Below, piece by piece: positions 824 to 2,114 of a DNA stretch of 64,000 bases. The notes beneath the pieces were generated by a model that was given only the letters and a program-made list of their open reading frames with translations, made no database searches and was not told where the DNA came from. The stretch's first letter is position 1. Each line of letters starts with the position of its first letter. Source of the DNA: Bryobacterales bacterium (GTDB lineage Bacteria > Acidobacteriota > Terriglobia > Bryobacterales > Bryobacteraceae); the NCBI GenBank assembly GCA_027459465.1, contig DAIDIH010000057.1, positions 36,516 to 100,515 of the forward strand. Reading direction: 5' to 3'. Both the position numbers and the translations under genes were made by a program.

Positions 824-1225
824 GTGGATACGGTCGGCAAGAAAGAGACGCCGGAGGCCCGCGTGACGCGCGAGGTGAAGGCGTTCCTCCGCCGGCGCGG
901 CTGGAGGGCCATCCGGATGCAGCGGATGGCTCTACCGGGCCAGTTCTCGAGCGGCGAGCCAGGCATTCCGGATTACCTCTTTCTGCGGTACGGGGAGCGT
1001 GGAGTAGCCGTCGCGCTCTGGATCGAGTTTAAGGCCCCCGGCCACAGGCTCGGACCGAAGCAGATCGAGTGGCGGGCGAGAGAGCGCGACCGCGGAGCGG
1101 AAGTGGCGGTCGTGGACGATCCGGCGTTCTTTATGGGGTGGTACGAGCGGCAGTTCTCGTGGCTGCACGACGGCCACGTGGTGGGGCAGATTGAGATGTT
1201 CGCGGGAGAGGATTCTGGTGCCTAG
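824..1225 (+). CDS. VRR-NUC-type nuclease
   Basis: GEPGIPDYLFLRYGERGVAVALWIEFKAPGHRLGPKQIEW resembles the VRR-NUC core (PD...E.K). Confidence 0.7.
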   Translation: MDTVGKKETPEARVTREVKAFLRRRGWRAIRMQRMALPGQFSSGEPGIPDYLFLRYGERGVAVALWIEFKAPGHRLGPKQIEWRARERDRGAEVAVVDDPAFFMGWYERQFSWLHDGHVVGQIEMFAGEDSGA

Positions 1226-2114
1226 CCGATACCTGAGGGACGGGATACTGACCAGCCGCGCCGTGGACGCGCTGAGTTTCGGGGCCGAGGTGTTGTACCG
1301 GCGGCTGATGTCGGTTGTGGATGACTACGGCCGCTACTGGGCGGAGACGCCGGCTGTGGCGGCGGCCTGCTTCCCGCTGCGGTCTGCGCTGCCAGACCCC
1401 GAGGATCCGGCGTGCAAGACGGTTACCCCTGCCGAGATCAGGGGGTGGTTGGCCGAGCTCGAGCGGGAACTTATAGTCATCTACGAGGTAGACGGACGGA
1501 AGTATCTCGAAATAAAGAAGTTCGACCAGAGGGTGCAGGGTAAGTCAAAATTTCCACCGTGTTCCACGGTGAATCACCGTGATTCACCGCTTCGCGCGCG
1601 CGCCGACGACGACGACGACGAGGACGATATTCGAGGGCGAGTATCGACGACGACGACTCGCGCGCGCGAGGCTGGCCCGGTCCCCGTGTCGCCTCCGGCT
1701 CCCGCGGGAGAACTGCCGTCGTCGTCGTCGTCGCTGGCAAACTGGCCTAAGACCGTGCGGGCTGTGCGGGACCGGTGGGAGTTCGCCGACGAGGAGATCC
1801 TGCGGCGCATCGTCGATTGCGCCCTGAAGGCCGCTGCCACAGCCAACCGCGAGGTCACGGACGGCGACGTAGCGGCTGCGGTACGCCTGGGGTGGCGCGA
1901 CAGCCACCGAGGGCCGGCGGCGCTCCTGCGGGCCGTCCCAGGCGCGCTGCGGGCCTACTGGGCGCGCGGCCGGGACTCTCCGCAAGCCGGGGACGCGCGG
2001 CATGCGGGCGAGGACCTGGTCGTCACTCGGGCCGATGGCTCCGTGGACTGGGAGGCCACCGAGGCCGCGATGGCGCGCGGCCATCCAGCGGAGGCGAGGG
2101 CACACGGGGACTGA
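1218..2114 (+). CDS. Phage replication initiator-like protein
   Basis: N-terminal PSRYLRDGILTSRAVDALSFGAEVLYRRLMSVVDDYGRY resembles phage replication/DnaT-type proteins; Asp/Thr/Ser-rich linker; C-terminal domain. Confidence 0.6.
   Translation: MPSRYLRDGILTSRAVDALSFGAEVLYRRLMSVVDDYGRYWAETPAVAAACFPLRSALPDPEDPACKTVTPAEIRGWLAELERELIVIYEVDGRKYLEIKKFDQRVQGKSKFPPCSTVNHRDSPLRARADDDDDEDDIRGRVSTTTTRAREAGPVPVSPPAPAGELPSSSSSLANWPKTVRAVRDRWEFADEEILRRIVDCALKAAATANREVTDGDVAAAVRLGWRDSHRGPAALLRAVPGALRAYWARGRDSPQAGDARHAGEDLVVTRADGSVDWEATEAAMARGHPAEARAHGD
1555..1589. repeat. 10-bp-phased CACCGTG/CACGGTG iteron array (candidate replication origin element)
   Basis: CACCGTG at 1555, CACGGTG at 1565, CACCGTG at 1575, CACCG at 1585; perfect 7-3-7 inverted repeats and a 9-3-9 repeat GGTGAATCA-CCG-TGATTCACC. 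Confidence 0.6.
1605..1732. repeat. GAC/GTC trinucleotide repeat tracts inside the initiator gene
   Basis: (GAC)5 at 1605-1619, (GAC)4 at 1646-1657, (GTC)5 at 1718-1732. Confidence 0.75.

Follow-up and report, generated by a model that had tools for sequence, protein, structure and literature searches.

A family of phage replication initiators with a winged-helix N-domain carries phased arrays of short sites, followed by a short-repeat tract, in the part of the initiator gene that encodes the linker, and both elements are conserved there as DNA. The member described here lies in a 64-kb window, the whole stretch of DNA (64,000 nucleotides) that was analysed. The best reading is an intragenic origin, similar to those of lambda O and the RepA_N plasmids, which belongs to a distinct initiator family; that the protein binds the array and that the region acts as an origin are inferences. 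The array at 1555-1591 would be where the product of the same gene binds, and the region from 1555 to about 1660, perhaps to 1732, would be the phage origin of theta replication. The probability of this reading is put at roughly 0.8, in the absence of binding or origin-mapping data.

The initiator gene and its repeats

The surrounding DNA is apparently a prophage, on a 100.5-kb contig. The initiator gene comes after a gene for a VRR-NUC nuclease and before terminase and portal-like genes. Judged by sequence, the protein is a member of PHROG families 5810, 1408 and 2149, 'replication initiation protein', which its N-domain matches (1.1e-10, 2.6e-10 and 1.9e-6, respectively). A sequence search of the PDB with the protein found no relative, and the C-terminal part has no clear relative among the homologues. 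The AlphaFold2 model of the N-domain (pLDDT 88, pTM 0.80) has helices at residues 21-33, 44-51 and 71-82 and a wing at 86-99. Two further genes lie near the left end of the prophage, upstream of the window start: one for a Mom-like DNA modification protein (L160:16958-17488, about 0.5-1.1 kb upstream; PHROG 1384, 1.8e-35), and one for a regulator with a metallo-protease match (L160:14964-16145, about 1.9-3.1 kb upstream). The features of the gene are as follows.

1218-2114, plus strand: initiator gene, GTG start, 298 aa, with winged-helix N-domain, linker and C-terminal part (PHROG matches; MPxR start conserved in homologues)
1218-1556, plus strand: winged-helix DNA-binding domain plus tail, codons 1-113 (AlphaFold2 model)
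1527-1538, plus strand: Q104-R-V-Q107, the motif that predicts array class (directly follows the wing in the AlphaFold2 model)
1555-1561, plus strand: iteron 1, CACCGTG (from the sequence; array absent from shuffles)
1565-1571, plus strand: iteron 2, CACGGTG (from the sequence)
1575-1581, plus strand: iteron 3, CACCGTG (from the sequence)
1585-1589, plus strand: partial iteron 4, CACCG (from the sequence; iterons 1-4 spaced by exactly 10 bp)
1593-1603, no strand: alternating CG run (second run at 1659-1668; enriched 3' of the array in homologues)
1604-1657, plus strand: short-repeat tract, (GAC)5 at 1605-1619 and (GAC)4 at 1646-1657 (counterpart of the AATCC and GNAGNC tracts of homologues)
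1718-1732, plus strand: (GTC)5 tract, inverse complement of (GAC)5 (17-nt perfect inverted repeat, 1604-1620 / 1717-1733)

The four iterons occupy codons 113-124, in the linker. A sequence-only reading had reported CACCGTG-type 7-mers at 1555, 1565, 1575 and, in part, 1585, exactly 10 bp apart, and the sequence confirms them; a truncated final unit also closes most class-1 arrays of homologues. The 7-3-7 inverted repeats of that reading are perfect. Its 9-3-9 repeat was also found, but pairs fully only if one G-T pair is admitted, and a longer perfect inverted repeat of the 11-1-11 type is present (1567-1577 / 1579-1589). CACCGTG is the reverse complement of CACGGTG, from which it differs in the central base only, and the centres run C/G/C. 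The alternating orientation that had been described is therefore no more than the central C or G of a 7-mer, CACSGTG, that is otherwise palindromic, and it was dropped as a special feature.

With up to three mismatches allowed, 0.01 matches to the three-site pattern are expected by chance in the window, and no other match was found there except the pattern's own shifted register. Permutation of synonymous codons within the gene, a fair null because the protein is fixed, rebuilt a three-site array in 35 of 200,000 trials. Since the 10-bp period is no multiple of 3, a protein repeat does not explain the array.

The (GAC)5, (GAC)4 and (GTC)5 tracts listed earlier are present and encode DDDDDEDD, STTTT and SSSSS, respectively. 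It is uncertain whether the (GTC)5 tract is part of the origin. Apart from the two alternating CG runs, the window has none that reaches 10 nt. Unlike the usual unwinding element, the GAC tract is GC-rich; the AT-rich unwinding region expected beside the array of a lambda O-like origin is lacking here.

Conservation of array and tract as DNA

About 200 homologues were gathered by alignment-based searches of IMG/VR and GTDB genomes, and from phage records. The window protein as a direct query of IMG/VR gave no match, and the homologues were reached via alignments instead; an early match (L003) lies in a genome of the same family. The homologues come from phages of Firmicutes, Proteobacteria and Acidobacteria and, further off, of actinobacteria, with an N-domain identity of roughly 30-55%. 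Relatives in the PHROG families are present in Paenibacillus, Gordonia, Streptomyces, Moorella and gut phages. No plasmid-borne relatives were found with L163 as the query.

Most of the homologues have phased arrays at the same position in the gene. In many of them, CACSGTG sites lie in the linker right after a conserved motif of the QxhXxKxSKFP type, and span several codon phases and peptides (WVTVDHGESP, CVTVSHRDPP, TEIHGESPWPTVSHS and STVIHGESRCATVSHGESP). The proposed check, that the 7-mers should persist at 10-bp spacing while the encoded peptide varies, was passed across the homologue set: place and period are kept, codon phase and peptide differ, and the DNA signal exceeds the synonymous-codon null in the linker alone.

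The last point rests on the self-similarity of linker DNA compared with synonymous-codon permutations in 137 non-redundant homologues (<85% N-domain identity). The mean z reaches 3.0 for period 10, 1.5 for period 11 and 1.7 for period 20, and stays near 0 for periods 7, 8, 13, 14, 16, 17 and 19. Two control stretches taken from these genes give a period-10 mean of 0.1-0.2. The periodicity is significant at p<0.01 in 71 of the 137 homologues and at p<0.05 in 89; the other 48, about a third, have no significant 10- or 11-bp signal. A DNA pattern scan of IMG/VR that was blind to protein returned 12 stretches, 5 of them in initiators of the window type.

Phased CACSGTG arrays also occur outside the initiator family, several of them in apparently non-coding DNA (L006/L010/L012/L013, L007, L014 and L015). 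No N-domain match to the family was found in the DNA examined at these loci, and the arrays are possibly iterons of other replicons or regulatory sites.

The second tract, with repeats of 3-7 bp, lies 3' of the array. It reads AATCC(A/G) in phages of Firmicutes and GNAGNC in proteobacterial-type phages, and the window has GAC repeats. The AT content of AATCC-type tracts is moderate. Of 48 genes with such tracts, 43 use more than one reading frame, with NPNP, SESE and IQSNP as the products; the GNAGNC tract is mostly translated as DVDV, GDGD or EDED, and as RSRS or TESE in others. The frame differs across phages, so it is the DNA and not the peptide that is conserved. Alternating CG runs follow the array in 15.6% of homologues, compared with 2.5% of synonymous permutations. 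Distant relatives in Streptomyces and Gordonia phages (L247, L248, L249) and in a Paenibacillus phage (L246) have different linker repeats, (GGAACAGG)n with period 8 and (GAACA)n with period 5, in several reading frames.

Array classes and the residue beside the wing

At least six array sequence classes exist among the homologues: (TCAC S GTGA N), (TTGC S GCAA N), CAATTG, TGATATCA/CANATG, GCANATGC (11 bp) and GGTCATC/CAGATGAC. Apart from CACSGTG, the classes were drawn up by visual inspection of the first homologue set. The units are near-palindromic on average (0.81 versus 0.64 for shuffled units), so that half-sites alternate every 5 bp. Palindromy is weakly significant for single arrays (29% at p<=0.05), and the claim is limited to the shift in the mean.

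Array class co-varies with a residue beside the wing. A single N-domain column (residue 99 in L034, Q107 in the window) separates the CACSGTG genes from those with other recognised arrays. In the first set, it holds Gln in 31/31 CACSGTG genes and Arg in 48/48 genes with other recognised arrays, with a mutual information of 0.97 bit; the next best N-domain column reaches 0.50. Among 63 later homologues that served as a hold-out, CACSGTG sites were present in 8/8 Gln proteins and absent from the array region of the Arg proteins. In the combined non-redundant set, CACSGTG accompanies Gln (at the fourth position of QR[IV]Q) in 30/31 cases and Arg in 1/102, the exceptions being L061, which has the Gln motif but no array, and L230, whose single site lies at a distance. 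The Fisher p of the association is 1.7e-27, uncorrected for kinship. Neighbouring residues of the motif likewise track array class.

On a tree built without the motif columns, the class residue changes 11-16 times; such trees are based on about 100 columns or fewer. If only well-supported branches are counted, five independent pairs are left; in each of them residue and iteron switch together, but so small a number cannot by itself attain p 0.05. The window protein sits among Arg-type relatives, apart from the Gln proteins of gut phages. Its Gln and CACSGTG array therefore look, from the sequences, as if they had been gained separately, or as if motif and array had been transferred as one block. 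With about 11 codons between motif and array, joint inheritance without contact is possible.

Some homologues have additional elements. A second small CACSGTG-type array with 10-bp phasing lies at the extreme 3' end of two genes (gene positions 654-670 in L177 and 660-670 in L189). In L181, a Gln-type protein with a single linker site, three 10-bp-phased CACCGTK sites lie within the part that encodes the N-domain (gene positions 221-247). Eight homologues (L087, L093, L095, L106, L128, L129, L139 and L143) have an HNH nuclease domain between winged helix and array, that of L093 being PF01844 with weak similarity to the HNH of IscB. The arrays of the HNH-insert homologues are mostly of class 2 (GCSGC) and still lie just 5' of an AATCC tract; in these, a nuclease directed at the origin could have been fused to the initiator or nested within it.

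Readings of the array and comparison with known systems

That the linker DNA is kept as a binding site and origin, as the sequence-only reading proposed, is supported by the conservation at the DNA level; binding and origin function remain inferences. The winged-helix domain and the post-wing QRVQ peptide are predicted to bind the half-sites TCAC/GTGA. Because these alternate every 5 bp and recur at each helical turn, the initiators would stack on one face of the DNA. The resulting complex might strain or open the adjoining short-repeat tract, whether GAC as in the window or AATCC or GNAGNC as in homologues, and might contact its single strands in a sequence-specific way; this step is a weakly supported inference. 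The exchangeable C-terminal part may recruit the helicase or its loader, as inferred from one homologue with a DnaD/DnaB_2 domain (L125) and from relatives whose genes adjoin those for DnaC or other ATP-binding proteins. Counted for the origin reading are these replication-module neighbours, the winged-helix model and the second arrays in L177/L189 and L181. GC skew, computed over the full 100-kb contig, stays uniform along the prophage; it leaves no mark at the site and is uninformative on the origin.

Three other explanations have to be weighed. Firstly, the array might serve as an operator for its own gene or operon, under the control of the protein itself or of another regulator, with the origin at some other place. 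Arrays of binding sites suit regulators too, and there is a promoter-like match at 1449-1477, but in all homologues the array lies 340 bp inside the coding sequence and not at its start, a second, multi-frame repeat tract would not be needed, and the protein family is annotated as initiators. An operator instead of an origin is thus improbable; the two roles could coexist. Secondly, the palindromes might act as RNA, in mRNA hairpins that affect translation or termination. The fold of 1540-1740 has a z of -2.7 and a terminator-like hairpin is found on the minus strand (1573-1553); against this, there is no Rfam match, and neither exact 10-bp phasing of 3-8 units nor co-variation with a DNA-binding-domain residue would be needed for a hairpin, which leaves very little room for the RNA explanation. 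Thirdly, a conserved linker peptide or low-complexity codon slippage is the least credible source of the repeats: the linker peptides are of low complexity and simple tracts can slip, but the frame shifts at every unit of the 10-bp period, synonymous permutation abolishes that period, iteron sequences vary between clades following a protein residue, and AATCC tracts occur in several reading frames.

It is tempting to extend the intragenic-origin reading to a very large family of phage initiators with self-encoded origins. Iteron specificity would reside in the post-wing peptide Q-x-h-[Q/R]-x, with Gln or Arg at one position and its neighbours switching between at least six iteron classes. The multi-frame AATCC, GNAGNC and GAC tracts, with their odd peptides (NPNPNP, SESESE, DGDGDG), would be single-strand elements read by sequence by a non-AAA+ initiator, a functional counterpart of the DnaA-trios. 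This remains speculative, and we do not hold it to be probable.

The intragenic-origin reading itself predicts origins, with base precision, in many uncultured phages that lack annotated ones, and accounts for the puzzling low-complexity linkers of phage replication proteins as DNA-driven. It also provides a simple and testable rule of protein-DNA specificity, one residue for one iteron class, which appears to have been switched several times. Such switching plausibly makes replicons independent of, or resistant to, rivals, as with plasmid and satellite origins.

Intragenic origins have long been known. In lambda O, the origin lies in the middle of the initiator's own gene and encodes the linker that follows an N-terminal DNA-binding domain (PMC7466680). 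The window shares with it an array of palindromic initiator sites, then a second tract, in the linker of the initiator gene (PMC7466680). A site array inside the linker, one mark of a lambda O-like origin, is present and conserved; binding by the protein is not shown. The iterons of ori-lambda are four inverted repeats of 18-19 bp, spaced by 20-24 bp, and its tract is AT-rich, whereas the units of the window family are 7-10 bp long, exactly 10 bp apart, and the tract need not be AT-rich. The window protein has no Pfam or NCBIfam match to lambda O, and its PHROG matches are 5810, 1408 and 2149; a direct comparison with O was not made. The likeness to lambda O that had been suggested is architectural, without evidence of homology in sequence or fold.

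In the PLE satellites, origin sequence and RepA N-domain co-vary and are swapped together, in connection with the Odn nuclease (PMC8263062). Co-variation of origin and initiator N-domain is common to these modules and the window family; unlike the latter, PLEs have their origin in non-coding DNA and a protein of the RepA_N type, and only five PLE variants were compared. Plasmid origins are known to need iterons in phase with the helix (PMC5043065). In a mycobacteriophage, an origin within repA or upstream of it has been suggested, without repeats having been found (PMC7157519). PHROG 5810, 1408 and 2149 are protein families only, and in the literature, which was covered in part, no description was found of embedded iterons or a residue-to-iteron rule for them.

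Lambda O is no closer an analogue of the window system than the initiators of RepA_N plasmids. The window protein has no Pfam match to RepA_N (PF06970) at E<=1. By fold comparison its N-domain is a generic winged helix with CodY/MarR-like best matches; 4pql, deposited in 2014 under the title 'N-terminal domain of DNA binding protein' and probably the pSK41 RepA N-domain, ranks 26th (TM 0.45). In the DnaD-related initiators of the pSK41 type, a winged-helix N-domain binds iterons central in rep, and the linker that they encode is dispensable (PMC5703833). In pPR9, N-domain and origin were exchanged as one unit (PMC5703833). With the pSK41 type, the window family shares a winged-helix N-domain, the similarity in fold being generic, and the position of the iterons, centrally within the initiator gene.
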